From Serinicoccus profundi (GTDB lineage: Bacteria > Actinomycetota > Actinomycetes > Actinomycetales > Dermatophilaceae), in contig NZ_CP042862.1 in NCBI RefSeq assembly GCF_008001015.1, positions 2,976,001-3,040,000 on the forward strand: a DNA stretch of 64,000 bases. Reading direction: 5' to 3'. Numbering within the stretch: the first letter of the stretch is position 1; each line of letters opens with the position of its first letter. Positions 6,070 through 45,266 of the stretch are shown here, one piece after another. The translations under genes were made by a program, and so were the position numbers. The notes beneath the pieces are model-generated. The model made no database searches. It had not been told where the DNA came from and saw only the letters and a program-made list of their open reading frames with translations.

Positions 6070-7947
6070 ATGGCGTGTCCCCGTTCCCATGTCCCCAAGG
6101 CCACGCTTATGCCTACTCCCCATTCGGCCGCACAGACGCGACGTGAAATCGCCATCAGTGGCTTCTGGGTCACTATCGATGCCTTGTCCTGGGCCATCGC
6201 CCTAACAATCGCCATCTGGGCACGTCTTGAATTTTCCTTGACCATCTTCACAGAATCGAATCTGTGGATCGGAATGGCGATCGTGGCGGGTATTCACGCT
6301 ACCGTCGGGTTGCTGACGGGCCCTTACCTGGTCCGTCACATGCGTGGAAGTTTTGACGAGATCGCCGCGCTCACCCGGACGGCCCTGATCACCGCTCTGG
6401 CGCTCATGGCCATCGCCTGGCTCACGCCGGCCGTCTTCATCCCGCGGTCGAGTGCTCTCCTCTCTCCGGCCCTCGCACTTGTCCTGATGCTCGCGGCGCG
6501 CTTCTTCGTCCGGACCTACCGCTCGAGACTGGTGAGCCGCAATCCGCACGGCGAGAAGGTCATCGTCTTCGGTGCTGGGCTGGCCGGCCGACGGCTCGTC
6601 CACAACATGCTGCACGACGACCGCTCGCAGTTCACGCCGGTCGCCCTGCTCGACGACGACCGCAACAAGCGTCGGCTCAAGATCGAGGGCGTCCCGGTCG
6701 TGGGGACTTTCGCCAAGCTGGCGACAACGGTCGAGAGGACCGGGGCGACCTACCTCGCGGTGGCGGTGCCGCACGCCACGCCCGAGCTGCTGCGCGACGT
6801 CCAAAGGCAGGCGCGAGACCTGGACCTCAAAGTGCAGGTACTCCCCCCGATCGAGGACTGGCTCCGCCAGACGGACCCACAGGCGACCGACCTGCGCGAC
6901 ATCAACCTCGAGGACCTGCTCGGACGCCGGGCCGTCGAGCTCGATCAGGAGACGATCTCCGAGCACCTCACCGGCAAGATCGTCCTCGTCACGGGCGCCG
7001 GCGGATCCATCGGCTCCGAATTGTGTCGCCAGATTGCACGCTTCGATCCTGCCCGTCTCATCATGCTCGACCGTGACGAGTCCGCCCTGCACGCGGTCCA
7101 GCTCTCCATCACCGGCCGAGGCTTGCTCGAGGGAGAGGATCTCCTCCTCGCCGACATCCGGGATGGGGACAATCTGCAGACACAGTTCGCCACGTGCAAG
7201 CCAGACGTGGTGTTCCACGCCGCAGCCCTGAAGCACCTGAGTTTGTTGGAGCGCTACCCCAAGGAAGCCTGGCAGACCAACGTCCTAGGCACCCTCAACG
7301 TCCTCACCGCTGCCGCGGAGAACGGCGTCGGCACCTTCGTCAACATCTCGACCGACAAGGCCGCCAGCCCCACGTCGGTACTGGGCACAAGCAAGCGCAT
7401 GGCCGAGCGCCTGACCGCCGAGTTCGCCTTGCGGCAGCCGGGTCGCTACGTCTCAGTGCGCTTCGGCAACGTCCTCGGCTCGCGCGGCTCGGTCATCCCG
7501 GCCTTCACCGAGCAGATCCGTCAGGGTGGCCCGGTGACAGTCACGCACAGGGACGTCGAGCGATACTTCATGCTCATCCCTGAGGCTTCACAGCTCGTCC
7601 TGCAGGCCGGTGCAATCGGCCGTGATGGTGACGTGCTCGTCCTGGACATGGGCACGCCCGTCAAGATCGTCGACGTTGCCCGTGACCTCATCCGCACCTC
7701 TGGAAAGGACATCGAAATCCGCTACACCGGCTTGCGTCCAGGCGAAAAGCTCAGCGAGGTGCTCTTCACCGAGGGTGAGCGCTTCCGGCCGACCGAGCAC
7801 CCGCTGATCACAGCCGTCAATGTCCCGCGGATGGAGCCGGAGCAGGTCCGACAGCGTCACTTCGGCACCGCCGAGCAGACTGCCGCTTGGCTCGCCGCGC
7901 ATACGGAACTCTCGCCCGAAACCCGCGCGCTGGAGCGCTCGGAGTGA
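6070..7947 (+). CDS. Membrane-bound nucleoside-diphosphate-sugar 4,6-dehydratase (PglF/CapD/FlaA1-like)
   Basis: A 625-residue enzyme of the large UDP-GlcNAc 4,6-dehydratase class. Four N-terminal membrane helices (to about residue 150) precede a Rossmann CoA-binding-like domain (VFGAGLAGRRL near 167) and the SDR catalytic domain with TGAGGSIGSE near 308. In the active site STDKA is followed by TSVLGTSK. The position of the usual Tyr (Met in PglF/WbpM) is Leu here. The product would be UDP-4-keto-6-deoxy-GlcNAc, first step to bacillosamine-type sugars. It heads a run of overlapping genes (aminotransferase, phosphosugar transferase, acetyltransferase, GT4). An alternative start is ATG 6109. 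The first 300 bases are clearly AT-richer than the genome norm. Confidence 0.92.
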   Translation: MACPRSHVPKATLMPTPHSAAQTRREIAISGFWVTIDALSWAIALTIAIWARLEFSLTIFTESNLWIGMAIVAGIHATVGLLTGPYLVRHMRGSFDEIAALTRTALITALALMAIAWLTPAVFIPRSSALLSPALALVLMLAARFFVRTYRSRLVSRNPHGEKVIVFGAGLAGRRLVHNMLHDDRSQFTPVALLDDDRNKRRLKIEGVPVVGTFAKLATTVERTGATYLAVAVPHATPELLRDVQRQARDLDLKVQVLPPIEDWLRQTDPQATDLRDINLEDLLGRRAVELDQETISEHLTGKIVLVTGAGGSIGSELCRQIARFDPARLIMLDRDESALHAVQLSITGRGLLEGEDLLLADIRDGDNLQTQFATCKPDVVFHAAALKHLSLLERYPKEAWQTNVLGTLNVLTAAAENGVGTFVNISTDKAASPTSVLGTSKRMAERLTAEFALRQPGRYVSVRFGNVLGSRGSVIPAFTEQIRQGGPVTVTHRDVERYFMLIPEASQLVLQAGAIGRDGDVLVLDMGTPVKIVDVARDLIRTSGKDIEIRYTGLRPGEKLSEVLFTEGERFRPTEHPLITAVNVPRMEPEQVRQRHFGTAEQTAAWLAAHTELSPETRALERSE

Positions 7948-9080
7948 CGGAACGCATCTACCTCTCGAAGGCCGATGTCACCGAGGTCGAGGAGCGGTAC
8001 GTCCTTGCCGCCCTCCGATCAGGGTGGATCGCCCCTCTGGGACCCGACGTCGACACCTTTGAGCGAGAGGTCGCGGACCGAGTCGGCGTGCGCCACGCGC
8101 TGGCGCTGTCCTCTGGCACTGCCGCTCTGCATCTGGCGCTCGTGCATCTAGGGGCCCGTCCTGGCACGGTCGTCGTGCTCCCGAGCATGACGTTCGCCGC
8201 CTCAGCTAACGCCGTGGCTTACACCGGGGCGGAGCCCGTCTTCGTGGACAGCCTCATGGAGGATGGCAACGTCGACCCTGATCTACTCGTAGAAGCGGTC
8301 GATGACCAGCGCGCCAGAGGTAGGCATGTCGCTGCCGTCATGACCGTGGACCTCTTCGGGAGAGCCTGTGACTACGGGCGTATCGAGCCCGCGCTGGCGG
8401 AGCGCGAGGTGCCGCTTGTTGAGGATGCCGCGGAGGCCCTGGGTGCCACGTACAAAGGCAGGGGCGCTGGTGCGTTCGGGCGAACAGCAGCCTTGTCGTT
8501 CAACGGCAACAAGATCATGACGACCTCGGGCGGTGGCATGCTGCTCAGTAATGATGGGGCTCTCATCGATCACGCCCGGAAGCTGTCTACCCAAGCTCGA
8601 GAGCCCGTCCCGTGGTACGAGCACACCGAGATCGGCTACAACTACCGGATGTCCAACATCCTGGCAGCTCTGGGGCGTGCTCAGCTCACCCGACTCGACA
8701 CCATGATGTCCCGTCGACGGGACATCAGGCGGCGCTATGTCACAGCCTTGGAAGATGCACCACTGAGGTTCCTGGGCGAGGAAGGAAACCGCGCAGCAGG
8801 GCACGACAACTACTGGTTGACCACGGTGGTGAGCGAAGACGCCCATACTGACGTCGACCGTCTCATCAAGTCTTTCAATGACGCCGCGATCGAAGCTCGT
8901 CACCTGTGGAAGCCAATGCACAGGCAACCTGTCTTCTCCGGTGCACAGTTCTACGGATCCGGCACGTGCGACGGCCTCTTCGAGACGGGGCTGACTTTAC
9001 CGAGCGGCTCGGGCCTGGGCGATAGCGAGGTGGATCGGGTGATCGATCATCTCCGGTTGATTCTCGGGCGGGCTGCATGA
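7944..9080 (+). CDS. DegT/DnrJ/EryC1 PLP aminotransferase (PglE-like)
   Basis: A 378-residue sugar aminotransferase. The GTG start at 7944 overlaps the stop of the dehydratase (GTGA) and has GGAG 8 nt upstream; the frame is open further 5' but that would lie inside the previous gene. Family marks: SSGTAALHLAL (phosphate binding), VEDAAEALGATY, and FNGNKIMTTSGGGML containing the PLP-binding Lys. It should aminate the 4-keto sugar made by the preceding enzyme, giving UDP-4-amino-4,6-dideoxy-GlcNAc. Substrate is inferred from the gene order, which matches the Campylobacter Pgl pathway. Confidence 0.9.
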   Translation: MTERIYLSKADVTEVEERYVLAALRSGWIAPLGPDVDTFEREVADRVGVRHALALSSGTAALHLALVHLGARPGTVVVLPSMTFAASANAVAYTGAEPVFVDSLMEDGNVDPDLLVEAVDDQRARGRHVAAVMTVDLFGRACDYGRIEPALAEREVPLVEDAAEALGATYKGRGAGAFGRTAALSFNGNKIMTTSGGGMLLSNDGALIDHARKLSTQAREPVPWYEHTEIGYNYRMSNILAALGRAQLTRLDTMMSRRRDIRRRYVTALEDAPLRFLGEEGNRAAGHDNYWLTTVVSEDAHTDVDRLIKSFNDAAIEARHLWKPMHRQPVFSGAQFYGSGTCDGLFETGLTLPSGSGLGDSEVDRVIDHLRLILGRAA

Positions 9081-9700
9081 GCTACCGCGGCAAGCGCATA
9101 CTCGATCTGGCCGTCGCCATCCCGGTGGCCGTGGTCACGGCACCCGTTCAGGTCGTGGTCGCCGGTGCAATCCGGGGCACGATGGGCAAGCCGGTCCTAT
9201 TCCGACAAGAGCGTCCGGGCCTGCACGGCAGAACCTTCACCATCCTCAAGTTCCGGACCATGCTGAGCGAGGAAGCGGCGGGGTCTTCCGACGACGCCGC
9301 GCGGCTGACCTCCCTCGGACGGGTTCTCCGTAGCACCAGCCTTGACGAGTTGCCAACCTTGTGGAACGTCATTCGCGGGGACATGAGTCTGGTCGGCCCA
9401 CGCCCCCTGCTCACCGCCTACCTGTCGAGGTACTCGCCCGAGCAAGCCAGGCGCCATGAGGCCCGTCCCGGCCTGACCGGCCTTGCGCAGGTCAAAGGCC
9501 GCAACAGCCTCTCTTGGGAAGAGAAGTTCAGGTTCGACGTGCAGTACGTGGACTCCCACACGGCCATCATGGATCTACGCATCATGGCAGCAACCATTAC
9601 GGCGGTTCTAGGACGTAAGGGCATTTCAGCCCCTGACAGCGCCACCATGCCAGAGTTCCTCGGGTCCGCCGAGGCGGCACCGGAATCCCACTTCGTATGA
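9077..9700 (+). CDS. Initiating phosphosugar transferase (PglC-like, bacterial sugar transferase family)
   Basis: A 207-residue monotopic phosphoglycosyl transferase of the short PglC type. One N-terminal re-entrant helix (residues ~5-30) is followed by KFRTM, the catalytic Asp-Glu of SLDELPTLWNV, and GDMSLVGPRPLL. It transfers a phospho-sugar to undecaprenyl phosphate at the cytoplasmic face and so starts the repeat unit. The start overlaps the aminotransferase stop by 4 nt and the end overlaps the acetyltransferase. It is the only initiating transferase in the window, so it may serve both polysaccharide modules. Confidence 0.93.
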   Translation: MSYRGKRILDLAVAIPVAVVTAPVQVVVAGAIRGTMGKPVLFRQERPGLHGRTFTILKFRTMLSEEAAGSSDDAARLTSLGRVLRSTSLDELPTLWNVIRGDMSLVGPRPLLTAYLSRYSPEQARRHEARPGLTGLAQVKGRNSLSWEEKFRFDVQYVDSHTAIMDLRIMAATITAVLGRKGISAPDSATMPEFLGSAEAAPESHFV

Positions 9701-10320
9701 GGGATCTGACCATCGTGGGGGCCGGTGGGTTCGGCCGGGAGGCGTGGTGCCTCGCCTCGCTGCTCAACGACACGGAGTCACGGTGGGGTGTAGTCGCGAT
9801 CCGGGACGACCGACCCGCTCACCACCGCCAGCTTTGCGGCGACCTAGGGGCGGACATCCTCGGACCCATACACGAACTGGATACTCGGGTGGAGGAGGTC
9901 GTAGTCGCAGTGGGTGATCCGTCCATCCGACGGTCCATCACGCAACGACTCCCAAGCGACACACGCTTCGCCACGCTGGTGCACCCGCGCGCTCATCTCG
10001 GCCCCCGCGTTACCCTGGGCGACGGTTGCGTGGTGGCTGCGGGCGCCACCCTTAGCACCAACATCCAGGTCGGCAACCACGTTCACATTGATCAGAACGC
10101 CACCATCGGCCACGATTGCGTCCTTGGGGATTTCGCTCGAGTAAATCCGGCCGCTTGCCTCTCCGGAACGGTGTATGTCGGTCACGGAGCCCTCGTAGGT
10201 GCCAACGCCACCGTTCTGCAGGGTCTGGACGTCGGCGCCGAGGCCGTGGTCGGGGCCGGCGCCGTCGTGACCCGGGCCGTCGCCGCGACCATGGTGGTCA
10301 AAGGGGTGCCTGCGCGATGA
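9697..10320 (+). CDS. Sugar O/N-acyltransferase, PglD/NeuD family
   Basis: A 207-residue two-domain acyltransferase. An N-terminal Rossmann-like part (VGAGGFGREAW) is followed by a left-handed beta-helix of hexapeptide repeats from about residue 95. The catalytic His is in ATIGHDC, preceded by HIDQN. In the Pgl pathway PglD acetylates the 4-amino group to give UDP-diacetylbacillosamine; here the same role is inferred from the block dehydratase, aminotransferase, PglC-like, PglD-like. Both ends overlap neighbours by 4 nt, indicating one transcript. Confidence 0.9.
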   Translation: MRDLTIVGAGGFGREAWCLASLLNDTESRWGVVAIRDDRPAHHRQLCGDLGADILGPIHELDTRVEEVVVAVGDPSIRRSITQRLPSDTRFATLVHPRAHLGPRVTLGDGCVVAAGATLSTNIQVGNHVHIDQNATIGHDCVLGDFARVNPAACLSGTVYVGHGALVGANATVLQGLDVGAEAVVGAGAVVTRAVAATMVVKGVPAR

Positions 10321-11540
10321 CCACACCGCGCCTGATGTACGCGGTCACCGCCCCCATCTCAGCCCTCATCTTCCTCGAGGGCCAGCTCAGGGCAGCACGA
10401 GAGGCCGGGTTCGACGTGCACGTCCTGTGCGGATCCGACCCTTCCGGCCGACTGTCCCGGCGGTGTGCGGAGGAGGGGGCGACGCTGCACGAGGTAGAGG
10501 TGACGCGCACTCCCTCGCTGCGCAGCGACGCCCGTGCTTTCCTCCAGGTGGCCGCGGCACTGCGGCGGGTCCGGCCCCAGATCATGGTGGCGGGAACGCC
10601 CAAGATGAGCCTGCTGGCTCTCGCCTGCGGCAGCGTTCTGCGCGTGCCTCACCGCATCTACCTCTGTCACGGGCTGAGGTTCGAGGGGGCGTCCGGACTG
10701 CGCCGGACGGGGTTGACCCGTCTCGAGCTGCTTCTGTCGTGCCTCGCTCATCACGTCGTGGCGGTCAGCCCCAGCGTGGCTCAGGGACTCCGCACAGCAG
10801 GCGCACCGGACGGACGCGTGACTGTTCTAGGGAGCGGGTCGCCCAACGGCGTGGACCTCGAGCACTTCCAGCCGCCGTCCTCGGCTGACAGAGCATCCGC
10901 TCGCGATGAGCTGGGGCTGCGGCCCGAAGGTCGCGTCCTGGCCTTCGTGGGTCGACTGACGGGGGACAAGGGGTTGTCCACCTTGGTCGCGTTGGCCACT
11001 GCCCTGGGCAACAGCGATGAACCGGAAACCGGTCGTGGGTGGCTGCTGGTCGTCGGCGAACCCGAACCCCACAGCGCCAGGGACCAGGCGGACATGGCAG
11101 CACTTCTCGCGAACCCTCGGGTCGTCTTCGCCGGACATCAAGACGACATGCGTGTGCCCTACAAGGCCGCGGACGTCCTCGTCCTCCCGACCAGGCGGGA
11201 AGGACTACCCACCGTGGTGATTGAGGCTGCTGCTATGCAGATCCCCACCGTCGCCTACCGCGCCACCGGCACCGTCGATGCCGTCATGGACGGCGAGACG
11301 GGACTGCTGGTCACCCAGGGCGATGTACCTGCTTTCGTTGCGGCTGCGCACCTCCTGGTCAGCAATGAACGTCTGCGTGATCAGCTGGGTATACAAGCTC
11401 GCGAACGTGTCGAACGCGACTTTTCTCGTCCGCTGGTCTGGAGACAGTGGACCGAGTACCTGAGGACCCTTGTCGCGCATGCCCCTCCCGTTGCCTCTCG
11501 ACGGGCTGATGGCCATCCACATCAAGGATGCACCTCTTGA
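10317..11540 (+). CDS. Glycosyltransferase family 4 (PglA-like)
   Basis: A 407-residue GT-B glycosyltransferase. The ATG at 10317 overlaps the acetyltransferase stop. The N-terminal domain begins MTTPRLMYAVTAPISALIF and has the CHGLRFEG segment typical of PglA-like enzymes. The C-terminal domain has AFVGRLTGDKG and the EX7E pattern in RREGLPTVVIEAAAM that contacts the nucleotide sugar. It would add the second sugar to the lipid-linked primer at the cytoplasmic face. It is the only glycosyltransferase in this cassette, so a longer repeat unit needs enzymes from elsewhere, for example the second module. Confidence 0.9.
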   Translation: MTTPRLMYAVTAPISALIFLEGQLRAAREAGFDVHVLCGSDPSGRLSRRCAEEGATLHEVEVTRTPSLRSDARAFLQVAAALRRVRPQIMVAGTPKMSLLALACGSVLRVPHRIYLCHGLRFEGASGLRRTGLTRLELLLSCLAHHVVAVSPSVAQGLRTAGAPDGRVTVLGSGSPNGVDLEHFQPPSSADRASARDELGLRPEGRVLAFVGRLTGDKGLSTLVALATALGNSDEPETGRGWLLVVGEPEPHSARDQADMAALLANPRVVFAGHQDDMRVPYKAADVLVLPTRREGLPTVVIEAAAMQIPTVAYRATGTVDAVMDGETGLLVTQGDVPAFVAAAHLLVSNERLRDQLGIQARERVERDFSRPLVWRQWTEYLRTLVAHAPPVASRRADGHPHQGCTS

Positions 11541-11564
11541 CGAGCTCCGGCAGCATCCTGCCCC

Positions 11565-12569
11565 TTGGGTCGACCGCCGTTTCACGGCATGACGGTTCTC
11601 TTCACCAGGCGGCGGGGGGTCGACGAGAGGCAGAATCAATGGCTCCTCCGTGCCCGTACACTTGCTGACATGCGCTTGCAGCGAGTGAAGGAGTCGGCAC
11701 GACGGGCTTATGGAGAGATCGTCAAGGGGAGGACGAGGGTCCAAGTTATTCATTCCGCAGAGGCTCCCGCCGGTACCCAGGCCCGCTTTATCTTGTCCCC
11801 ATACCGGTCTGGGACGACCCTGCTGAGGTACTGCCTCGACTCCCACCCAGACATCGCCGTGCCGCCCGAGTCCGATTTCGTGTCCCTTATAGCGGCAGTT
11901 ATGGAAGACGAGGCCAGCATGGCCGGCTATCGCGACCTCGGGTACGACACCGAACATGTCCGTGAACTACTCGCCCATACTGCGCGAGTGCCCCTCGATA
12001 CTTACGCCTCCGGTCGGGAGTCCAGACTTGGCTGGGTAGATAAATCCCCGCGATATGCAGAAGAGCCTCTAAGGATCCTGGCTCTTTTCCCCGAGGCCCG
12101 ATTCGTCATCATGCATCGCCATCCGCTGGACCAAATTCATTCCTTCACCCGAGCCGGGTCGTTCAAGCATCCTGCTCTCGGCTCATCAACCATGGGCAAA
12201 GATCTCGTGTTGACCGCGGCAAGATACTGGCACCGCACAACACGAGGCTTGACAGCCCTCGGCGAATCAGAAAACACTACCGCGCTATCAATCAGGTATG
12301 AAGACCTCTGCAGCGATCCCCGGAACACTCTAGGCAGTATCACGTCGCATTTTCACCTGCCGTGGAACGAGTCGGTTCTCAACTACCACCTCCATAACCA
12401 CGACTTAGGTCGCGAAGCGGGGCGCGTGGCAGGTACGCGCGGGTTCAGTCTTTCCACTGGCGGGTGGGGCGCATGGCAACAAGATTGGATCGACGACACC
12501 TGGGACATCGTGGCATCTGCAGCCCAAGATCTGGGGTATAGCAAAGAGCCCTGGCGACAGGGCTCATAA
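11565..12569 (+). CDS. PAPS-dependent sulfotransferase, first of three
   Basis: A 334-residue soluble sulfotransferase. The 5'-phosphosulfate loop is LSPYRSGTTLLRYCL (about residues 75-90) and the 3'-phosphate region is IMHRHPLDQIHSF. It should move sulfate from PAPS to a sugar hydroxyl. The start is uncertain: an ATG at 11670 would remove 35 poorly conserved residues. The gene is in the AT-richest part of the window (the line at 12241-12300 is only about half G+C by eye), unlike the other two sulfotransferase genes. It follows the GT4 gene by 24 bp, and a perfect 8-bp hairpin covers its last codons. Confidence 0.85.
   Translation: MGRPPFHGMTVLFTRRRGVDERQNQWLLRARTLADMRLQRVKESARRAYGEIVKGRTRVQVIHSAEAPAGTQARFILSPYRSGTTLLRYCLDSHPDIAVPPESDFVSLIAAVMEDEASMAGYRDLGYDTEHVRELLAHTARVPLDTYASGRESRLGWVDKSPRYAEEPLRILALFPEARFVIMHRHPLDQIHSFTRAGSFKHPALGSSTMGKDLVLTAARYWHRTTRGLTALGESENTTALSIRYEDLCSDPRNTLGSITSHFHLPWNESVLNYHLHNHDLGREAGRVAGTRGFSLSTGGWGAWQQDWIDDTWDIVASAAQDLGYSKEPWRQGS
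12546..12565 (+). terminator. Perfect hairpin at the end of the sulfotransferase gene
   Basis: GAGCCCTG and CAGGGCTC form an 8-bp perfect stem around a GCGA tetraloop, ending one base before the TAA stop codon. There is no T-run after it, so it is not a classical intrinsic terminator. A GNRA-closed, GC-rich stem of this kind can act as an actinobacterial terminator or as protection of the mRNA end. It separates the Pgl-like run from the polymerase-like gene. Confidence 0.45.
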
Positions 12570-12731
12570 GATGGAGGATAGAGAGACCTGGCTGAGCGCC
12601 CAAACACCAGGAGGGCCATCCGGGTGCGTCAACTCAGCCATGACCCTGGGGCCGTTGAGGTCTAGGGCGGGAGCGAACCGACACGGGGCGAGAACTTCCT
12701 CGCAGTACGGCCCTTGGAGAGCTGTCGCCTG

Positions 12732-13940
12732 ATGGATCACCTACTCCCCACATTGGTCGTCGCCATGACTGTAGTGTTCGCGTTGGCGGCGGCTGCGCGT
12801 CGGTCGATGGGCGCAGCGCTGGTGCCGGTGTTGGCCAGCTTCTCTTTCAACAGTCTGATCGGCGTTCTGGCCATCCACGCCATCGGGCTAGGCAACGATG
12901 CTCAGTTGTACGACGACACGGCCAGAAGCACTCTCTCATTCTGGCGTGAAGGAGCTTCGAGTCGGCCCGCCGAACTCGAGGACAGGCAAGGCTACATCGT
13001 CGCGCTTGCTGCCATGTATGGTGCATTCGGCACAACCCCCTACCCCATGATCATCTTGAACGCTGCAGCGGTGGCAAGTACCGCTCTCGTCCTAGCGCAT
13101 AGCACCAAGATGCTGGGTGGAGGGACCGCAGCCGTCCGCCTCGCCCTGTGGAGTGGCATGTTCGTGCCCGGCTTGCTCTTGTGGACCAAAGACCTCATCA
13201 GAGAGCCCTTCATCTTCCTTTTCACTGCTCTCGCCGGAATGGCTGCCCTGCGCTGTGCCTTGAAACTACGTTGGGGCGCATGGGCTGCCATAGCTTTCTT
13301 AGGCCTGGCCGGCACCCGCCAAGAATCGGTCGTCACTTTGGGCATCGCCATTGTGATGGCACTGATTTTTGCTAGGCGCGACACGCTCGATCGCCGCTTT
13401 TTCGTTCTTGCCGTCTCAGCGGTGCTCATCACTCCTGTCCTGAGCTACGTCTGGGCACAACTACCATCATCCGATCTGCAGTCATCGAGGGTGGCCGTCG
13501 CTCGCGGCACGACCAGCATCGCCTCGTCCAGTACCCTCCCGGTCGACCCGCTTAACTTCGGTCGCGCATTGCTGGGTCCTCTACCATGGGAATGGACCGG
13601 CCCCCTGCTGGTCCTTGCCCTGGATGCAGTGTTCTGTTGGATTGTTCTTTTCTGCGCCATCAGATGGCTTCGACACCACCCTTCGCCAGGCCTCTGGGTG
13701 CTCTTCGTGCCTGCCATGGCGCTGTACGTGGTGGTTTCCATCACCGCTGCTTACAACTATGGCCTCTTGATCCGAATTCGAACTCAACCGCTTATGCTGC
13801 TACTTCCCCTCGCGTTCGCGGGTCTAGCCGGACCCAAGGCGGCGAGCTACGTCTGGCCCGAATCAACCAAGTCGGTCACGACCGAGCTTGGGGGTAGGCG
13901 TAGGAGGTCGAGCTACTTACCGAATAGGGCGAAGCACTGA
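12732..13940 (+). CDS. Polytopic membrane protein, probable polysaccharide polymerase (Wzy-like)
   Basis: A 402-residue protein with roughly ten hydrophobic segments and a large periplasmic-type loop near residues 255-290, the general plan of O-antigen/EPS polymerases. These share little sequence, so the call rests on topology and position beside the flippase, chain-length regulator and initiating transferase. ATG 12732 is chosen because GGAGAG lies about 11 nt before it; a TTG at 12714 is in frame. The 162-bp gap before it shows no gene. The end is basic (GGRRRRSSYLP). Composition is AT-rich like its neighbours. It converges on the flippase gene 24 bp away. It could instead be a membrane glycosyltransferase. 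Confidence 0.65.
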   Translation: MDHLLPTLVVAMTVVFALAAAARRSMGAALVPVLASFSFNSLIGVLAIHAIGLGNDAQLYDDTARSTLSFWREGASSRPAELEDRQGYIVALAAMYGAFGTTPYPMIILNAAAVASTALVLAHSTKMLGGGTAAVRLALWSGMFVPGLLLWTKDLIREPFIFLFTALAGMAALRCALKLRWGAWAAIAFLGLAGTRQESVVTLGIAIVMALIFARRDTLDRRFFVLAVSAVLITPVLSYVWAQLPSSDLQSSRVAVARGTTSIASSSTLPVDPLNFGRALLGPLPWEWTGPLLVLALDAVFCWIVLFCAIRWLRHHPSPGLWVLFVPAMALYVVVSITAAYNYGLLIRIRTQPLMLLLPLAFAGLAGPKAASYVWPESTKSVTTELGGRRRRSSYLPNRAKH

Positions 13941-15185: not shown

Positions 15186-15493
15186 CAGCCGTCCTTGATC
15201 GCCTGCTCGACCGAGGCGACATGCAGCCGCACCCCCAGCCGCTCCACCCAGCGGTCGCGGGTGTCCAGCACCTCGGGGAAGTCGTAGCCGGTGTCGACCT
15301 GCAGCACGGGGAAGGGCACCTTGGCCGGGTAGAACGCCTTCTCCGCCAGCCGCAGCATGACGATCGAGTCCTTGCCACCGGAGAACATCAGCACCGGCTT
15401 CTCGAACTCCGCCGCGACCTCACGGAAGATGTGGATCGACTCGGCCTCCAGCTCATCGAGCTGGGAGAGTCGGTAGCTGCCGTCGACTGTCAC
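15185..15493 (-). pseudogene. Truncated 5' copy of cysD (sulfate adenylyltransferase subunit 2)
   Basis: The 102 codons match the first 102 of the full cysD at 28759-29670 with only two amino-acid differences (Asn to Ser at residue 6, Leu to Val near 88). The PP-loop [10 protein letters not shown] is kept. The frame ends after EQAIKDG, where the intact gene continues. At the DNA level about 13 bases differ over 357 bp, mostly third positions, so the copy is not a fresh duplication. It lacks two thirds of the enzyme and cannot be active. It still has the GTG start, upstream leader and TGATG coupling, now to a flippase instead of cysN. Confidence 0.93.
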
Positions 15494-15544
15494 TCCTGCG
15501 CCTTTCCCCTACGGATGCTGCAGCGTGTCACGATATCGGACTTC
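15188..15544 (-). repeat. Direct repeat, copy 1 (cysD 5' end plus leader)
   Basis: This 357-bp block matches 29365-29721 in the same orientation with a constant offset of 14177 bp and no gaps, about 96% identical by eye. It includes about 50 bp upstream of the GTG start. Similarity stops sharply at both ends. A homologous block of this size can support recombination that would delete or circularise the 14 kb between. Confidence 0.95.
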
Positions 15545-15655
15545 GTGTCGCAACCTCGCATCGCGAGCGGCTAGGTAGATTGCTGCTGGGCAAGTCCCTA
15601 TTGTTGCCCGGTGGGTTCTCCGTCCCGACCCGCCCCCGAGAGCACCGGAGTATGC

Positions 15656-30853: not shown

Positions 30854-30867
30854 CCCGAGGGGCACCC

Positions 30868-33415: not shown

Positions 33416-33605
33416 GCCCTCTCTCTCGGCCCCACGATCTTGCGGGCTGCTTGCGCTTTCACAAAATTCTCGTCAGGAGACGCCACAGGAGCTCACTCAC
33501 GTCACACGACGGTGGCGCACGGGTTAACGTCGTTGGCCGAGGCGCCCGTGAAGTGCCTCCTCGCATCATCCCGTGAGTTGTCCCCCCGAAGGAATTTGTC
33601 CCGTC

Positions 33606-37338: not shown

Positions 37339-37339
37339 C

Positions 37340-38266: not shown

Positions 38267-39787
38267 TCAGCGACGGGCACGGGCACCCTCGTCCGACACC
38301 GACGCCGCGTCGTGCATCCCGATCTCCGGACGCCGTCGACGGTGCACCATCACCGTCCCGACGACCCGACTGCCCTGGCTGACCGTGTCGCGCGCGGCCT
38401 GTCGCAGCTCGGTCACGGTGCTCGCACCGCGAGCGGCCAGGAACACCGTCGCATCTGCCAGCCGGGACGCCGCGAGCCGGCTCGCGCGGCCATACTCCTG
38501 AGGCGCGGCGAGGACGACCACCGAGTCACCCTGACGGGCAGCGATCTCCTGCCGCACCGCGGCCGAGATCGGCTCGTCGTCAGAGTCCTGCGTGGGGACA
38601 TAGACCGTGAAGCCGGGCACCTCCTGCGAGGCGTAGCGGGTCCCCACCCCGGTCGCCGCGACCTCGCTCAGCCCGAGCGAGCGGCGCACCCGGTCGGCCT
38701 GGGCCTCACTGGTGCGCAGAGCGATGAAGGTCACCTGCAGTCCGGACTGCGCCAGCACGTGCGCCAGGGTGACGGCCACCCCGGTGGAGACTCCGGGCCC
38801 GTGCACCGGGAGCACCGCCAGCACCCCCCGGCCGTCGCTCAGGAAGCCTCTCGCCAGCAGCCGCTCCCGGATCTCGCGGTAGACGGCCAGGTCGTCGCCA
38901 CGGGGTGCGACCTCGACGTTGCCCCGGTCGATGGAGCCCAGGATCTCGACGCCCCCGTGCGAGGCGACGTCGGACCGGGAGACGACCCGTGGCCAGATGG
39001 CCTGCACGAGGAAGGCGAGCAGCAGCCCCAGCCCGAAGCCCGCCACGGCTCCGGTCACGAGGACCAGCAGCCGCGACGGCGAGTACTCCACGCCACCGTT
39101 GGCTGCCGGGTTGAGCACCGTGCCACCGTTGGTGTCGATCCCCCGCGCCGTCGCGAGCTGCGAGGCGAGAGCGTCGATCTCGAGGTTGATGAGCGAGCGG
39201 TCCGACTCCGCCTGGATGGCCGCCTCGCTCCCACCCTCGACCTGCGCCAACCGCTCGTTGACCTCGCGCAGGTCGTCACGCAGCTCGGCCAACCGGGCGG
39301 CCGACTGCTCCAGCCGTCGCTCGATGCGGCTCTGCGCCTGCTCCGCCCGGTAGTCGAGGTAGGCGGTCGCGGAGGCATCCGCGATGTCACGGGCAGCCTC
39401 CGCCGAGTCCGCGGTGGCCGTGATGCGCAGGACCGCCGTGTCGGCCACCCCCGCGACCTCGATCGCCTGACGGATGTCCGTCGGCTCGTAGTCGCCGCCC
39501 AGCCCCTGCGCCGCCCGGTCCGCCACGGCGAAGGAGGACGCCACCTGAGCCTCCCCGGCAGCGTCGATGAGCTCGGAGACGGGGCGCGTCACGTCGAACG
39601 GGTCACTGGTGATGAGGTTGAGCGAGACCGTGGCGGTCGCGCTCGCCTTCACCGGCAGGACCAGCAGGGAGGCAGCGGCGGCGCCGAGGCCCAGCAGCGT
39701 GGCCAGCACGATGACCCACCACTTGCGCCACAGCACCTCGGCGTAGTGCCACAGGTCGACGCCCGCATCGTCGTTACGCTGCTCCAT
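38267..39787 (-). CDS. Wzz-domain protein with degenerate kinase domain
   Basis: A 506-residue co-polymerase-like protein from ATG 39787. Two membrane helices (about 23-45 and 235-260) enclose a coiled-coil-rich periplasmic region. The cytoplasmic part has the BY-kinase fold, but the Walker A site reads LPVHGPGVSTGVAV without the GKS/T, Walker B is VVVLAAP without the Asp, and no Tyr cluster ends the protein. It can probably not bind ATP normally. The active kinase at 15656 may regulate it, or it acts as a passive scaffold. It lies on the opposite strand inside the second module. Confidence 0.85.
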   Translation of the reverse strand: MEQRNDDAGVDLWHYAEVLWRKWWVIVLATLLGLGAAAASLLVLPVKASATATVSLNLITSDPFDVTRPVSELIDAAGEAQVASSFAVADRAAQGLGGDYEPTDIRQAIEVAGVADTAVLRITATADSAEAARDIADASATAYLDYRAEQAQSRIERRLEQSAARLAELRDDLREVNERLAQVEGGSEAAIQAESDRSLINLEIDALASQLATARGIDTNGGTVLNPAANGGVEYSPSRLLVLVTGAVAGFGLGLLLAFLVQAIWPRVVSRSDVASHGGVEILGSIDRGNVEVAPRGDDLAVYREIRERLLARGFLSDGRGVLAVLPVHGPGVSTGVAVTLAHVLAQSGLQVTFIALRTSEAQADRVRRSLGLSEVAATGVGTRYASQEVPGFTVYVPTQDSDDEPISAAVRQEIAARQGDSVVVLAAPQEYGRASRLAASRLADATVFLAARGASTVTELRQAARDTVSQGSRVVGTVMVHRRRRPEIGMHDAASVSDEGARARR

Positions 39788-39840
39788 GGTGCTCTTCGTC
39801 TCCCACCCGACGGATGATTCTTCAATGATGGCCGTCTCGT

Positions 39841-41154
39841 ATGCTACGACAACCGGCTGGTGTCCAGATCCGGCTGGCCAAGGTGTTCCAGAGGGGTGAG
39901 GTGCAGACCGTGGCACACGTGGGCGATCCCGCTCTCGCCAACACGCTCCGGCAGCTGTGGGGCGCTGCCGTCGAGAGCGGCGACGTCCGGATCCGCACCA
40001 CCGGCCGGGCCACCCCGGGCTGGGAGCCCGTCCGACACTTCGACGTCTTCCCCTCGACGAGCCGCGCCCGCATGATCATGGAACGCGGACGATCGGCCAC
40101 CACGGCCAAGGCCCTGCTGGCCTACCAGGGGCTACGACCGCGCCGTCTCCAGGCGGCCCGCCTCGCCACCACCGCCGCCGCCGGCGCCCGCGCCGCCGGC
40201 GGGAGGCCGGCCTTCGTCCTCGAGCACGCGACCCGCGCCGCTGGGGCCCCCGAACCGCTCACCGCCGTCGGCGAGAGGCTGGGTCGCCCCGTCCTGGCCC
40301 ACGTCGGGGTCCGCACCGGGGCCAACGCCAAGGCCACCGCCCAGCTCTTCAGCCCCTCCGGCACGCCGGTCGGCTACGCGAAGTTCGCCTGGAACCCCCT
40401 GACCTCCGGCTACGTCCTCACCGAGGCCGACCGTCTGCAGGAGCTGGACGGCCGGACCGGGGGTATGCGTGTCCCGCGCGTGCTCGCGCGCGGCGAGACC
40501 TTCGGTCATCCCTACCTCGTCACCGCGCCCCTCCCCCGGGGTGTCCGACGGCTCTCCCGCCCGGAGGACCTCGGCGTGGCCGAGCTCGCCACCGTGTCCC
40601 CCCTCGACCGCCGGGCACCCGCGCATACCAGCGGCGCACTGCTCGGCATGCGGGAGCACGCCGAGCAGCTGCGGCAGCACGCTGTGGTCCGCGATGCCGC
40701 CGCCGCACTGGCGCAGACCGTGGGCGGACTCATGGGGCTCGAGGTGAATGTGCCCATCGCTCGCTTCGACCACGGCGACCTCGTCCCGTGGAACACCTGT
40801 CGCAGTCGCGAGGGTGAGGTGTGGGCGTGGGACTGGGAGTCCTCCATCACGGACGTGGTGGCCGGCACCGACGCGCTCCACTGGTTCGTCCACTCCGTCC
40901 ACGGCCCGTCGCCCTCCGACCTCGCGGCCGCCACCACGGACGCCTTCACCCGCGCGGCCCCGACCTTCCACGCTCTCGGCATGACCCCCGCCGCCCAGCA
41001 CGTCGCGACGGCCGCCTTCGCGCTCGCCACGGTCGAGCGGGCGTGCGCCCTGGCCGCCAGCCACGACACCTGGTCCCGCAACCGCATCGGGGCGGACGAC
41101 GTGGCCCGTCTGCTGACCCTGGCGCAGCACCACATCGACTCCGCCGCGCGATGA
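39841..41154 (+). CDS. APH/choline-kinase-like phosphotransferase in polysaccharide cluster
   Basis: A 437-residue protein whose C-terminal half has kinase marks of the aminoglycoside-phosphotransferase fold: catalytic loop FDHGDLVPWNTC (HGDxxxxN) and metal-binding VWAWDWES. The N-terminal ~120 residues (VRHFDVFPSTSRARMIM) are not recognised. Such kinases phosphorylate small molecules or sugars; one here may add phosphate or prepare a substituent. GTG 39901, with GAGGGG 4 nt upstream, is an alternative start. Its stop overlaps the polymerase start (ATGA), so the two are coupled. Confidence 0.7.
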   Translation: MLRQPAGVQIRLAKVFQRGEVQTVAHVGDPALANTLRQLWGAAVESGDVRIRTTGRATPGWEPVRHFDVFPSTSRARMIMERGRSATTAKALLAYQGLRPRRLQAARLATTAAAGARAAGGRPAFVLEHATRAAGAPEPLTAVGERLGRPVLAHVGVRTGANAKATAQLFSPSGTPVGYAKFAWNPLTSGYVLTEADRLQELDGRTGGMRVPRVLARGETFGHPYLVTAPLPRGVRRLSRPEDLGVAELATVSPLDRRAPAHTSGALLGMREHAEQLRQHAVVRDAAAALAQTVGGLMGLEVNVPIARFDHGDLVPWNTCRSREGEVWAWDWESSITDVVAGTDALHWFVHSVHGPSPSDLAAATTDAFTRAAPTFHALGMTPAAQHVATAAFALATVERACALAASHDTWSRNRIGADDVARLLTLAQHHIDSAAR

Positions 41155-42482
41155 CCACACTCCTCTCCGACACCAGACACCGGGTCGCCCCCGACGCCGA
41201 CCGCCCGCTGCCGGTATGGCCCATGGTCGCCCTGCTCGCCGGGTACCCGCTCTGGTGGATCATCGGCATCGTCGACGTCTCGTGGATCCTCTTCGGGGCG
41301 CTGCAACTGCTCTACCTCCTCCGCAACGGTCGCACGCGGGCCCCCCGGGGCTTCGGGATCTGGTTGGCCTTCCTCGTCTGGATGACGTTGTCGGTCACCC
41401 AGCTGGACACCTTCGGTCGCGTTGTGGGCTTCTCCTACCGCCACCTGATCTATGTGGCGGCCACCGTCCTGTTCCTCTACATCTACAACGCCCGCACCCG
41501 CCTGCACGACACCTTCGTGCTGGGTCTGCTCACGACCTACTGGCTCATCACGGTGGTCGGCGGCTTCCTGGGGATGCTGCTGCCCACCACGGTGGTGCGG
41601 ACCCCCCTGTCCTACGTCCTGCCCGGCTTCCTGCTCAACAACGAGCTGGTCAACCACATGGTGATCCGCCGCTTCGCGCAGTACGACCCGACCAGTTACT
41701 TCGATGTCGCGCCGCGCCCCAGCGCGCCCTTCCTCTACACCAACAACTGGGGCAACGCCTACTCCTTGCTGCTCCCCTTCGTCGTCCTCTACCTCATCAA
41801 GGTCCGTCACCAGCGACGCTTCTGGGTCCTGCTCCCCCTGGTCCCCATCTCCTTCATCCCCGCCGCCGCGACCCTCAACCGCGGGATGTTCCTCGGGCTC
41901 GGTCTCGCCGCGATCTACCTCGCCGTGCGCTACCTCCTGCGGGGGCGGCCAGGTGTCCTGATCTGCGTCGTCCTGGCCGGCGTCCTCGGGGCGGGGGCCT
42001 TCACCGCCTCCTCCTTCGACGACAACATCACCGCCCGGGTAGAGGACACCAGCACCACGGAGGACCGCGCAGAAATCTATCTCCAGACGCTGCGGAGCGT
42101 GCAGGACAACCCGGTCTTCGGGCTCGGGGCCCCTCGCCCGTCCACCAACCCCAACATCCCGCCCGTGGGCACCCACGGCCAGTTCTGGATGGTCATCCAC
42201 TCCCACGGGATCCCCGGGGTGCTGTTCTTCCTGGGCTGGTTCGCGTTCGTCGTCGCCGGAAGTCTGCGACGGACCGACGACGTCGGCACGGTGGCCAACG
42301 CGGTCGTGCTGGTGGCGCTGGCAGAGGTCTTCTACTACGGCTTCCTCCCCGTGGGACTGATGCTCACGATGATCGCCGCGGCGTTGGCACTGCGAGGTGC
42401 ATCGTCGGAGCGGGGCCCGCTGCACCGGGACCGCCGACCACGCCTCACACGGAGCAGGCTCACAGCAGGGAGAGACATCTGA
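41151..42482 (+). CDS. O-antigen ligase/polymerase-like membrane protein (Wzy-like)
   Basis: A 443-residue protein with about ten helices. It shows the Wzy_C/O-antigen-ligase pattern: a large loop around residues 195-225 with YTNNWGNAYSLLLPF and then SRG-like LNRGMFLGLGLAAIY, plus a later NPVFGLGAPRPS and VGTHGQFWMVIHSHGIPG. The His in the last segment is typical. It would polymerise repeat units on the outer face. Start and stop overlap the neighbouring genes by 4 and 1 nt. Confidence 0.88.
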   Translation: MTTLLSDTRHRVAPDADRPLPVWPMVALLAGYPLWWIIGIVDVSWILFGALQLLYLLRNGRTRAPRGFGIWLAFLVWMTLSVTQLDTFGRVVGFSYRHLIYVAATVLFLYIYNARTRLHDTFVLGLLTTYWLITVVGGFLGMLLPTTVVRTPLSYVLPGFLLNNELVNHMVIRRFAQYDPTSYFDVAPRPSAPFLYTNNWGNAYSLLLPFVVLYLIKVRHQRRFWVLLPLVPISFIPAAATLNRGMFLGLGLAAIYLAVRYLLRGRPGVLICVVLAGVLGAGAFTASSFDDNITARVEDTSTTEDRAEIYLQTLRSVQDNPVFGLGAPRPSTNPNIPPVGTHGQFWMVIHSHGIPGVLFFLGWFAFVVAGSLRRTDDVGTVANAVVLVALAEVFYYGFLPVGLMLTMIAAALALRGASSERGPLHRDRRPRLTRSRLTAGRDI

Positions 42483-43417
42483 TGGACACACGCGTGCTCT
42501 TCATCTCCGGCGTCGGCCGGAGCGGAAGCACCCTCATCGAGCGCACGCTCGGCACGGACCCGCGGTTCGTCGTGCTGGGCGAGGTGACCCACCTGTGGGA
42601 GCGCAGCCTGCAGATGGATGAGCTCTGCGGCTGCGGGCTGCCGTTCTCCGAGTGCCCCTTCTGGACCGAGGTGGGGCAGCGCGCCTTCGGTGGCTGGGAC
42701 ACGCTCGACGCCGCGCAGATCGTCGCCACCCGCGCCCGCCTCGACCGCGTGAGCCGCACCCCGCGGCTGCTCCTCGGTCTCGGCGGTCGGCGCTACCGGA
42801 AGGACGTCCAGCGGTATGGCGCGTTGTACGCCCAGATCTACCGCGCGGCCGCCGAGGTGAACGGCGCCGACGTGGTGGTCGACTCCAGCAAGCAACCCTC
42901 GATCCCCTATGTCCTCACCCATCAGGACGCCCTCGACGTCCGCATCCTGCACTGCGTGCGCGACAGCCGGGCCGTCGCCTACTCCTGGACCAAGACCGTG
43001 GACCGCCCCGAGGCCCAGGTCGAGTCCTTCGGCACGATGACCCGCTACTCACCCTCCAAGCTCTCCCTGGTCTGGATCGCGCACAACGTCTCCTCGCTCG
43101 CGAGCCGGCTGACCGGGCAGCCCGTCACCACCCTGCGGTACGAGGACTGGGTCCGCGCTCCACGGGCGGCGACCGCCGACATCCTGCGCGCGTGCGACCT
43201 GGAGCCGACACCGGTGGATGCCATCACCGACACCGCCGTGACCCTGGTGACCAACCACACCTGCAGCGGCAACCCGCTGCGCTTCCGCACCGGGGAGGTC
43301 CGCATCCGCCTGGACGAGCGGTGGCGCGAGGACCTGCCGACCTCGAGCAACCGGCTGGTCACCGCGATGACCCTGCCGCTGCTCCGCCTCTTCCACTACG
43401 TAGGACGCCAGCCATGA
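42482..43417 (+). CDS. PAPS-dependent sulfotransferase, third of three
   Basis: A 311-residue sulfotransferase. The 5'-loop is ISGVGRSGSTLIERTL (about 8-23) and the 3'-phosphate segment LHCVRDSRAVAYSW (about 157-170). A Cys-rich insert (LCGCGLPFSECPFW) at about 48-61 is common in bacterial Sulfotransfer_3 proteins. The ATG shares one base with the polymerase stop (TGATG) and the end overlaps the GT2 gene by 4 nt, which puts sulfation in the same operon as polymerisation. Confidence 0.92.
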   Translation: MDTRVLFISGVGRSGSTLIERTLGTDPRFVVLGEVTHLWERSLQMDELCGCGLPFSECPFWTEVGQRAFGGWDTLDAAQIVATRARLDRVSRTPRLLLGLGGRRYRKDVQRYGALYAQIYRAAAEVNGADVVVDSSKQPSIPYVLTHQDALDVRILHCVRDSRAVAYSWTKTVDRPEAQVESFGTMTRYSPSKLSLVWIAHNVSSLASRLTGQPVTTLRYEDWVRAPRAATADILRACDLEPTPVDAITDTAVTLVTNHTCSGNPLRFRTGEVRIRLDERWREDLPTSSNRLVTAMTLPLLRLFHYVGRQP

Positions 43418-44334
43418 CCGATCTTCCCTCCGTCACCGTCACGATCCCCACGCACGACCGACCCCAGCAGGTGCGGACGGCCATCGAGGCTGCCCGCGCG
43501 CAGGACTACGCCGGCGAACTCGAGGTCGTCGTGGTCTACGACAACGCCGAGCCAGACCTGTCGTTGCAGACGGCTCCCGGCGCGGAGCGACCGGTGCGGG
43601 TGCTGCGCAACGAGCGGACGCCAGGTCTGGCCGGTGCCCGCAACACCGCGACCGTGCACGCGAACGGCGAGCTGGTCGCGTTCTGCGACGACGACGACTA
43701 CTGGGCCCCGACCAAGCTGCGTCGGCAGGTCGAGGAGCTGCACCGGGCACCTGACGCGGAGATGGTGACGTGCTCCATCCTGGTGGAGTACGACGGGCGG
43801 TCCACGCCGCGGCTGGCGGGCGTCGACCGCGTCACGCACCCGATGCTCGTCCGGTCCAGGATGGCCATGCTCCACTCCTCCACCTTCGTCTTCCGGCGCG
43901 CGGCGATGCTGGGCGACCTCGGTCTCATCGACGAGGAGATCCCCGGCAGCCAGAACGAGGACTGGGACATCCTGCTGCGCGCGGCGGAGCGGGGTCCGAT
44001 CGTCCACGTCGACGAGCCGCTCGTGCACGTCGTCTGGGGCGCGACCTCCTTCTTCTCGCGCCGGTGGGACACCAAGATCGACAGCTCGGAATGGATGCTT
44101 CGCCGTCACCCTGCCATCGCGGCGGACTCCCGTGCGGCGTCTCGGCTCATGGGCCAGATCGCCTTCGCGCACGCGTGCAGCGGCAACCGACGCGACGCGG
44201 CTCGGTGGGTGGCCCGGACCGCCCGGCGCAACCCGGCGGAGCCACGCTGGCCCCTGGCGGCAGCGGTCTCGGTCTGGCCCCGGGCCGGAGGGACGGTCCT
44301 CAACCTGCTCCACCGGATGGGACGCGGCGTGTGA
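43414..44334 (+). CDS. Glycosyltransferase family 2
   Basis: A 306-residue GT-A enzyme. It starts MTDLPSVTVTIPTHDRPQQV, has the metal-binding DxD as FCDDDDYW (about 90-97) and the catalytic-base region GSQNEDWDILLRA (about 175-187). No membrane helices, so it acts on lipid-linked intermediates in the cytoplasm. It overlaps both neighbours by 4 nt. Confidence 0.93.
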   Translation: MTDLPSVTVTIPTHDRPQQVRTAIEAARAQDYAGELEVVVVYDNAEPDLSLQTAPGAERPVRVLRNERTPGLAGARNTATVHANGELVAFCDDDDYWAPTKLRRQVEELHRAPDAEMVTCSILVEYDGRSTPRLAGVDRVTHPMLVRSRMAMLHSSTFVFRRAAMLGDLGLIDEEIPGSQNEDWDILLRAAERGPIVHVDEPLVHVVWGATSFFSRRWDTKIDSSEWMLRRHPAIAADSRAASRLMGQIAFAHACSGNRRDAARWVARTARRNPAEPRWPLAAAVSVWPRAGGTVLNLLHRMGRGV

Positions 44335-45266
44335 GTGCTCGCGACCTCCTCGTGGCCTCCCCCGGTGGCCACGTCGAGGAGCTGGCCGAGCTGATGCATC
44401 GGCTCACCCCCGCCCCCCAGCAGCCGGTCTGGGTCACGGCGCGCAGCCTCCAGACCGAGCGCCTGCTCTCCGGTGAGGACGTCGAGTGGATCCCCAGCGT
44501 CGGGTCGCGCCAGGCGTGGCGCGCTGCGCGCTCACTCCCGATCGCCCGACGGCTGATGCAGAAGCACCGCCCCGACCGGGTCATCTCCACCGGGGCCGCC
44601 CTCGCGCTGCCCTACCTCCTGGCCGCCCGCGCGACCGGAGCCCGGGTCCACTACATCGAGAGCGCCACCCGCCTGCACGGTCCCTCGCTCACCGGCAGGG
44701 TGCTCGAGCGGGTGCCCGGCGTCCACCTGCACCACCAGGCCTTCGACGAGCCGCGCGGGCGCTGGCGGGCCACCGGCAGCGTCTTCGACTCCTTCGCCCC
44801 GGGCCCCGAGGGCGCACCGGTCTCCGAGGACGCCCTCCTGACCATCGGCACCGAACGCTTCCCCTTCACCCGGGCCTTGTCGCTGGTCGAGGTGACGGAC
44901 GACCTGTCCTGGACGGTGCAGACCGGGCATACCCCGGCCGATGATGCCGATCCGCGCTGCCGCCGGTGGATGAGCCCCGAGGACCTGACCGACCTCACCA
45001 CCCGCGCGAGCCTGGTCGTCACCCACGCGGGAGTCGGCTCCGTGCTGCTCGCCCTGCGCGCCGGCAAGCACCCGGTGGTCGTGCCGCGCTTGGCCGACCT
45101 GCGCGAGCACGCCGACGACCATCAGCTGGAGCTCGCTCGCGCCCTGGAGCATCGCGGCCTGGTCAGCGTGCTGCTGCCCGACGACGACCCGCTCCCGGTC
45201 CTCGCCCGGGCCAGACGACGCAGCACCGTGCGCGTCCGGCCCGAGCCGGTCAGCCTCGAGGGCTGA
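44331..45266 (+). CDS. Fused Alg14/Alg13-type (PssD/PssE-like) glycosyltransferase
   Basis: A 311-residue protein from GTG 44331, overlapping the GT2 stop. The N-terminal half begins DLLVASPGGHVEELAELM and has the DRVISTGAALALPYLLAAR segment of Alg14/PssD, which anchors and binds acceptor. The C-terminal half ends with LVVTHAGVGSVLLALRAGKHPVVVPR, the UDP-sugar site of Alg13/PssE. In many bacteria the halves are separate genes; here they are one chain. It probably adds the second sugar to a lipid-linked primer. Last gene of the operon; the giant PKD gene converges on it with 2 bp between. Confidence 0.87.
   Translation: MSARDLLVASPGGHVEELAELMHRLTPAPQQPVWVTARSLQTERLLSGEDVEWIPSVGSRQAWRAARSLPIARRLMQKHRPDRVISTGAALALPYLLAARATGARVHYIESATRLHGPSLTGRVLERVPGVHLHHQAFDEPRGRWRATGSVFDSFAPGPEGAPVSEDALLTIGTERFPFTRALSLVEVTDDLSWTVQTGHTPADDADPRCRRWMSPEDLTDLTTRASLVVTHAGVGSVLLALRAGKHPVVVPRLADLREHADDHQLELARALEHRGLVSVLLPDDDPLPVLARARRRSTVRVRPEPVSLEG

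Follow-up and report, generated by a model that had tools for sequence, protein, structure and literature searches.

A predicted locus for a sulfated surface polysaccharide in Serinicoccus profundi that carries all sulfate-activation genes found in the genome

Among the described gene clusters that come closest to the locus treated here, one belongs to Cobetia marina, a gammaproteobacterium, and another, the synechan xss cluster of Synechocystis, is presumably of the Wzx/Wzy type. Papers of 2021 (PMC8205485) and 2026 (PMC13390465) call bacterial sulfated polysaccharides exclusive to cyanobacteria. Sulfated capsules of marine Vibrio and Cobetia have been reported, however (PMC11641403, PMC11766843), with the structure determined for C. 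marina KMM 1449 (PMC11766843), and a Streptomyces polymer is given with a sulfate figure (PMC9911575), so chemical reports exist for other actinobacteria. The locus described here lies in a stretch of 64,000 nucleotides of the actinobacterium Serinicoccus profundi (bases 2976001-3040000 of the single-contig 3.48-Mb genome), referred to throughout as the window. It likely encodes a surface polysaccharide or exopolysaccharide made by the Wzx/Wzy route, with repeat units that would be sulfated in the cytoplasm, and it holds the only genes found in the genome for making 3'-phosphoadenosine 5'-phosphosulfate (PAPS).

Gene identities were assigned by homology, using Pfam, TIGR and NF profile models with their cut-offs, beside motif, membrane-segment and Foldseek checks (Table 1). 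Module 1 (6070-17956) comprises a PglF/PglE/PglC/PglD-like set, a GT4 glycosyltransferase, sulfotransferase 1, a candidate Wzy, a Wzx and a fusion of Wzz with a ParA-like kinase. Module 2 (35824-45266) comprises a second Wzx, sulfotransferase 2, a Wzz on the opposite strand, a Wzy, sulfotransferase 3 and two glycosyltransferases, and the stretch between the modules holds wecB, wecC, cysN, cysD, cysC, cysQ and a transporter of the SLC13 type. The Wzx, Wzy and Wzz of module 2 exceed their Pfam cut-offs (Wzz by 0.1 bit), as do the priming transferase and the Wzz/kinase fusion of module 1; Wzx 1 is under its cut-off and matches at 55.7% the gene behind cysN in S. kebangsaanensis, and Wzy 1 is proposed from its position and about seven predicted membrane segments. 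By these assignments, the window would provide all parts of a Wzx/Wzy-dependent pathway, namely Wzx, Wzy, Wzz and a priming transferase. The transporter probably imports sulfate, which CysD and CysN would convert to adenosine 5'-phosphosulfate (APS) and CysC to PAPS; the three sulfotransferases would transfer sulfate from PAPS to sugar units in the cytoplasm, and CysQ would clear the inhibitory 3'-phosphoadenosine 5'-phosphate (PAP). A first-pass annotation of the window had already named cysND, an APS kinase, cysQ and a probable permease between the modules, as well as wecB and wecC as a putative source of ManNAcA for one polymer, and the profile matches bear out these gene identities, sulfate being the probable substrate of the transporter; the solved structure nearest to CysQ is a PAP phosphatase (5djf, 237 bits). 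The PglF/PglE/PglC/PglD-like set (6070-10320) had been overlooked.

The three sulfotransferases that the same annotation placed in the two modules all exceed the PF13469 cut-off of 27 bits and keep the conserved motifs RSGTT, RGGTT and RSGST, respectively, which we take to be like the 5'-phosphosulfate-binding (PSB) motif. Sulfotransferase 3 scored 21.2 bits in the genome search, under the cut-off, and was retained based on its score as a whole protein. The solved structures nearest to sulfotransferase 1 are polyketide-synthase and tyrosyl-protein sulfotransferases, and a search of solved structures gave no relative of sulfotransferase 3 at E 0.1, which would fit a lipid, a protein or a small molecule as the substrate in place of a polysaccharide. 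Such a substrate is nevertheless quite unlikely, as all three genes sit among glycosyltransferase, wzx and wzy genes and heparan sulfate sulfotransferases make up many of the solved relatives of sulfotransferase 2; its best ones are 3rnl, named only Sulfotransferase (2.5e-18), and a heparan sulfate 3-O-sulfotransferase (2.1e-16). Beyond these three, the genome has a fourth PF13469 match at 2283465 (L012:8301-9836, minus strand), in which a PIG-L deacetylase is fused to a sulfotransferase.

Genome-wide searches gave a single intact CysD and a single APS kinase, both inside the window, and found no ATP sulfurylase of the Sat type. The activation genes are therefore not extra copies owned by the locus. 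The absence of cysH and cysI, which the first-pass annotation had stressed, applies to the window and not to the genome: a PAPS-reductase-type CysH (TIGR02057 268.4 bits, cut-off 254.2) adjoins CysI and a CysJ-like flavoprotein elsewhere, and a second CysH of the APS-reductase type has a CC pair and the pattern CxxC...ECGLH (TIGR02055 228.4 bits, just under the cut-off of 235.3). Since the activation genes are the only ones found in the genome, the same pool would also feed reductive assimilation where it is functional. The PAPS supply is thus shared and not dedicated unless the break in CysI is real, and the claim that the locus has its own supply is not supported.

CysI (1515-1518 kb), which gave the genome its single PF01077 match, is split over three frames here vs a single frame in S. 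sediminis and S. kebangsaanensis. The annotation had named two findings that would refute it, a complete cysHI operon elsewhere depending on this cysNDC and a surface polymer free of sulfate; the first of these applies, apart from the three frames of CysI. If the break in CysI is real, the reductive branch is dead in this strain and sulfate would be activated for sulfation alone, a situation possible also in three other genomes of the family (G013, G039 and G062, below). When 27 conserved genes of S. sediminis were compared with the window, not one continued there in another frame, so frame errors are uncommon in that part of the assembly, the cysI region lying outside this check. On the other hand, two breaks in one gene can be sequencing errors, which may be the case here, and the open reading frames of both CysH genes and of the CysJ-like gene are intact. 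A dead reductive branch in this strain is regarded as unlikely.

The co-occurrence of sulfotransferases and activation genes in related genomes, proposed earlier as a check, was analyzed in an even sample of a larger group, comprising 119 genomes of the family, which were searched for PF13469, PF01583, CysD, CysH and PF01077, after which the results were crossed. A sulfotransferase genome was defined by a PF13469 match over the cut-off, and genomes with PF03567 or PF00685 sulfotransferases only were not counted as such; CysC was recorded as away from CysH when it lay more than 10 kb from it or on another contig. The sulfotransferase matches of G029 and G059, which lie under the cut-off, were dropped before counting, and so were the cysD fragment of G000, the second pieces of split CysD genes in G043 and G049, and CysC matches of less than 170 bits (84 bits in G059, 60 bits in G060 and about 31 bits or less in others), which were taken as other P-loop kinases. 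In G016, G065, G094 and G114, a CysC lies next to CysN and CysD and was taken as a third, CysN-fused-like type.

Sulfotransferases over the cut-off were found in 32 of the 119 genomes. A strong APS kinase is present in 58, comprising 30 of these 32 vs 28 of the 87 others (p 7e-10). CysC lies away from CysH in 35 genomes, that is, in 29 of the 32 sulfotransferase genomes (including G114, which has only the CysN-fused-like CysC) vs 6 of the 87 others (p 1.6e-18), and counted per genus in 16 of 19 vs 3 of 34 (p 5e-8). A CysC at most 150 bp from CysH, in the arrangement cysH-cysC-cysD, was found in 23 genomes, one of them with a sulfotransferase. Within genera 1, 8, 39 and 43, the members with sulfotransferases have a CysC away from CysH and those without have no strong CysC; no such contrast is seen in genera 7, 28 and 38. 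These results suggest that activation genes and sulfotransferases have been gained and lost together in the family.

The reductive genes of the family were compared in the same way. CysH loci, 28 in number, were fetched from 14 sulfotransferase genomes with CysC away from CysH, eight cysH-cysC-cysD operons and six genomes without CysC. The CC pair is present in all 28 proteins, and 24 of them match the second cysteine pattern too, the four exceptions coming from the operons; judging from these motifs, the 28 look like APS reductases. APS reductases need no CysC. A high-scoring CysH of the PAPS type (at least 492 bits, the next match having 135) is restricted to three Serinicoccus genomes (G000, G052 and G085). 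Neither CysH nor PF01077 was matched in 17 of the 119 genomes, and CysD is kept in three of the four with sulfotransferases vs none of the 13 without (p 0.006). The three (G013, G039 and G062) also keep CysC, and the fourth (G038) has no CysD; as G013 and G062 belong to the same genus, activation without reduction represents two lineages. Two CysDs each are found in G057 and G083, one within the CysC/sulfotransferase locus and the other beside CysH, and the second CysD of G023 and G088 lies less than 8 kb from a sulfotransferase and not beside CysH.

Physical linkage was also found. Of the 30 genomes that have both CysC and a sulfotransferase, 19, spread over 13 genera, carry the two less than 30 kb apart, and in 8 of the 11 genomes whose CysC contig is longer than 1 Mb the distance is within 20 kb, where random placement would give 0.32. 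The simplest alternative is that these are ordinary assimilation genes which merely neighbor a polysaccharide locus, with the sulfotransferases drawing on the general pool. The single activation copies, the CysH and CysI/J genes elsewhere (one CysH being of the PAPS type) and the 75 CysC-scan loci outside Serinicoccus, mainly of Nocardioidaceae, would agree with it: only six of the latter have a sulfotransferase in the vicinity (at most 10 kb away), so that a tie between the long CysC and sulfotransferases is not general, and the use of this CysC as a marker of sulfation across all Actinomycetota is unsupported. However, the family-wide co-occurrence and linkage, the three genomes that keep CysD and CysC without a reductive branch, and the position of cysDN ahead of polymer genes in two relatives (below) speak against mere neighborhood, which we judge very unlikely.

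Several observations besides the Nocardioidaceae loci weigh against joint work of the two gene sets. Among the 11 long-contig genomes, G006, G065 and G094 show no linkage; a CysC away from CysH occurs in six family genomes that lack a PF13469 match over the cut-off; three sulfotransferase genomes (G011, G038 and G105) have no CysC away from CysH; and G034, a genome with 58% completeness, carries two CysDs without either a sulfotransferase or a strong CysC. In addition, the N-terminal extension of CysC (below) is poorly conserved, the statistics take genomes and genera as independent, and the class away from CysH includes other contigs in draft assemblies. On balance, the suggestion of the first-pass annotation that activation genes and sulfotransferase/polysaccharide genes work together is well supported by co-occurrence, linkage and the operon-like placement of cysDN with polymer genes.

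This placement was examined in Serinicoccus, whose species are the closest named relatives in the CysC scan; each of the five relatives gave sulfotransferase matches. In S. kebangsaanensis, cysD, cysN and wzx1 follow one another with 1-bp overlaps, and wzz lies on the other side of cysD. In S. sediminis, cysDN occupies the same site; behind it on that strand come genes for a Wzy-like protein, for a membrane protein with 10 segments and for a sulfotransferase (PF13469 27.2 bits, cut-off 27). In both species, cysD-cysN thus appears to head an operon that includes polymer genes. The gene pair adjoins cysC in the window, in S. chungangensis and in two uncultured strains. The window keeps, at 15188-15563 on the minus strand, a 376-bp copy of the 5' end of cysD that had escaped the first-pass annotation; it is 94.9% identical to the intact copy (98% in protein) and sits where the two relatives have intact cysDN, and it marks the former cysDN site. 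With S. sediminis, the alignment of its leader extends over 90 bp, and with the strains that carry cysDN beside cysC over 53 bp. The stop of the remnant overlaps the start codon of wzx1, so wzx1 may now use the old cysD promoter, a possible promoter capture. Module 2 is syntenic in S. sediminis; G003 and S. kebangsaanensis have a different module in its place, and in S. chungangensis and G005 it was not found immediately behind the transporter. A histidine kinase gene (26234-27481, minus strand) stands beside cysN, with a response regulator gene nearby (23310-24668, minus strand); such genes adjoin cysDN or cysC in five of six Serinicoccus loci and were not seen there in S. kebangsaanensis.

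The CysC of the window carries about 175 residues ahead of the kinase domain, for which no Pfam match was obtained and no sulfurylase domain was reported. In the kinase tree, 43 rows of this long type, including the window CysC, group together (97/94), the eight sampled CysH-linked CysCs form one clade apart from them (99/96), and the two CysN-fused-like rows (G016 and G114) fall outside. The structure model of CysC (mean predicted local distance difference test, pLDDT, 86; predicted template-modelling score, pTM, 0.57) was matched by Foldseek to the sulfurylase/kinase fusions 1i2d, 1m8p, 3cr8 and 2gks with template-modelling scores on the query (TMq) of 0.58-0.67, a loose fit with long gapped alignments and a root-mean-square deviation of 7-8, and to kinase domains alone with TMq of 0.43-0.47; by sequence, the kinase part is nearest to 3cr8. 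The modelled extension may therefore have an ATP-sulfurylase-like fold. The consensus of alignment A1 has no stretch like QxRNPxHxxH, which we take as the motif to be sought for ATP sulfurylase activity. We tentatively propose, at somewhat short of even confidence, that the sulfation branch of the family uses a distinct clade of two-domain APS kinases, in which the ATP-sulfurylase-like domain is shortened and which has been gained and lost with the sulfotransferases, that the short CysC of the cysH-cysC-cysD operons serves assimilation, and that some members, perhaps this strain, have lost the reductive branch and activate sulfate only for the surface polymer.

Table 1. Features of the locus; positions are counted from the first base of the window.
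Feature	Position	Strand	Evidence
PglF-like nucleotide-sugar 4,6-dehydratase	6070..7947	+	PF02719 344.9 bits
PglE/LegC-like aminotransferase	7887..9080	+	PF01041 321 bits; TIGR04181 333 bits, under cut-off 420
Priming sugar-phosphate transferase (PglC-like)	9077..9700	+	PF02397 199 bits
PglD/NeuD-like acetyltransferase	9697..10320	+	TIGR03570 187.7 bits, above cut-off
GT4 glycosyltransferase	10317..11540	+	PF00534 93.8 bits
Sulfotransferase 1	11565..12569	+	PF13469 105.8 bits; RSGTT motif
Candidate Wzy 1	12714..13940	+	no Pfam match; about 7 predicted membrane segments; position only
Wzx 1 flippase	13965..15185	-	PF01943 24.6 bits (cut-off 28.2); PF13440 22.9 bits (cut-off 23); about 9 predicted membrane segments
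cysD 5'-end remnant (102 codons and leader), former cysDN site	15188..15563	-	94.9% to window 29365-29740
Wzz fused to ParA-like (tyrosine-kinase type) domain	15611..17074	+	PF02706 45.4 bits; PF10609, PF13614
WecB	19387..20541	-	TIGR00236 442.5 bits, above cut-off
WecC	20538..21785	-	NF008286 542.9 bits, above cut-off
CysN	27497..28759	-	TIGR02034 563 bits, above cut-off
CysD, sole intact genome copy	28759..29670	-	TIGR02039 430 bits, above cut-off; genome-wide PF01507 search
CysC with N-terminal extension of about 175 residues	29777..30853	+	PF01583 185.7 bits at residues 182-334
CysQ, PAP phosphatase	about 30850..31638	+	PF00459 107.6 bits; TIGR01331 101 bits, under cut-off 228.8; 5djf 237 bits
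SLC13-type anion transporter, probable sulfate permease	31643..33415	-	PF03600, PF02080, PF00939; TIGR00785 117 bits, under cut-off 198.6
Carbohydrate-binding protein	33573..34997	+	PF02018 38.9 bits
Wzx 2 flippase	35824..37338	+	PF01943 33.9 bits
Sulfotransferase 2, heparan-sulfate-sulfotransferase-like	37340..38242	+	PF00685 50.3 bits; PF13469 48.4 bits
Wzz 2	38267..39916	-	PF02706 25.6 bits, cut-off 25.5
Function unassigned, possibly kinase-like	39841..41154	+	PF03881 only at E 0.079
Wzy 2	41151..42482	+	PF04932 49.1 bits
Sulfotransferase 3	42482..43417	+	PF13469 40.7 bits; RSGST motif
GT2 glycosyltransferase	43414..44334	+	PF00535 80.6 bits
GT28-like glycosyltransferase	44331..45266	+	PF04101 31.2 bits

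Some reading frames in and around the locus were set aside or belong to other functions. The plus-strand frame 38312-39817 is probably no gene, the opposite strand being occupied by Wzz 2, and the minus-strand frames 29936-30922, 29806-30732 and 30742-31509, initially taken as cys candidates, are not cys genes according to profile scans. An ISL3-family transposase gene (18047-19345, plus strand) between module 1 and wecB looks broken, as its Pfam match starts at profile position 42. Adjoining module 2 (45269-50767, minus strand) is a gene whose product has 1832 residues and carries PKD and laminin-G domains, with an identity of 79.7% in S. sediminis. Further on, genes of a VTC-domain protein and, after it, a Cthe_2159-type carbohydrate-binding protein (54400-57489, plus strand) are kept in S. 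chungangensis, and consecutive dapB-, dapA- and dapD-like genes (60406-62944, plus strand) in S. chungangensis and G005.

Within the family, a CysC away from CysH can be used as a genomic marker to predict makers of sulfated polymers, and the genomes that keep cysD and cysC without CysH and sulfite reductase offer a natural case of activation solely for sulfation.

The locus resembles the capsule cluster of C. marina KMM 1449 in combining cysN/C, cysD, cysQ and a sulfate permease with sulfotransferases, but that cluster has ABC-transporter (Kps) export and a fused CysN/C (PMC11766843). The polysaccharide cluster of Vibrio sp. KMM 8419 likewise contains cysCND and three sulfotransferase genes, but it has ABC export and second cysCND copies, unlike the sole copies of the window (PMC11641403). 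Of the features of this kind of cluster, the window has both sulfotransferases in the polysaccharide cluster (three) and cysNDC with cysQ in the same cluster; extra activation genes beyond the assimilatory set, a trait of the Vibrio and not required of the kind, were not found here, and G057 and G083 have the second CysD already mentioned. The actinomycete Wzx/Wzy cluster wps-1 of Actinoplanes missouriensis is similar in having two sulfotransferases, one of the heparan-sulfate type, and a kinase-like protein; a term search of the main text gave neither PAPS nor cysC, and sulfation is unverified there too (PMC13390465). The exopolysaccharide genes of the synechan xss cluster include two sulfotransferases as well, with sulfate measured, but the cluster is cyanobacterial, and a term search of the main text did not give PAPS (PMC8205485). 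As regards CysC, the APS kinases of Thiobacillus denitrificans (3cr8) and Entamoeba histolytica have the kinase behind an ATP-sulfurylase-like N-terminal domain, which is inactive in both (PMC13213808); about 350 residues precede the kinase match in 3cr8, compared with about 175 in the window CysC. Since the gene set is known from the Cobetia and Vibrio clusters, and an actinomycete Wzx/Wzy cluster with sulfotransferases from Actinoplanes, the idea itself is not new. Single shared activation genes in an actinobacterial setting, their co-inheritance in a family and the operon placement were not seen among the literature matches listed. What is new is this actinobacterial Wzx/Wzy setting, the co-inheritance and probably also the two-domain CysC.

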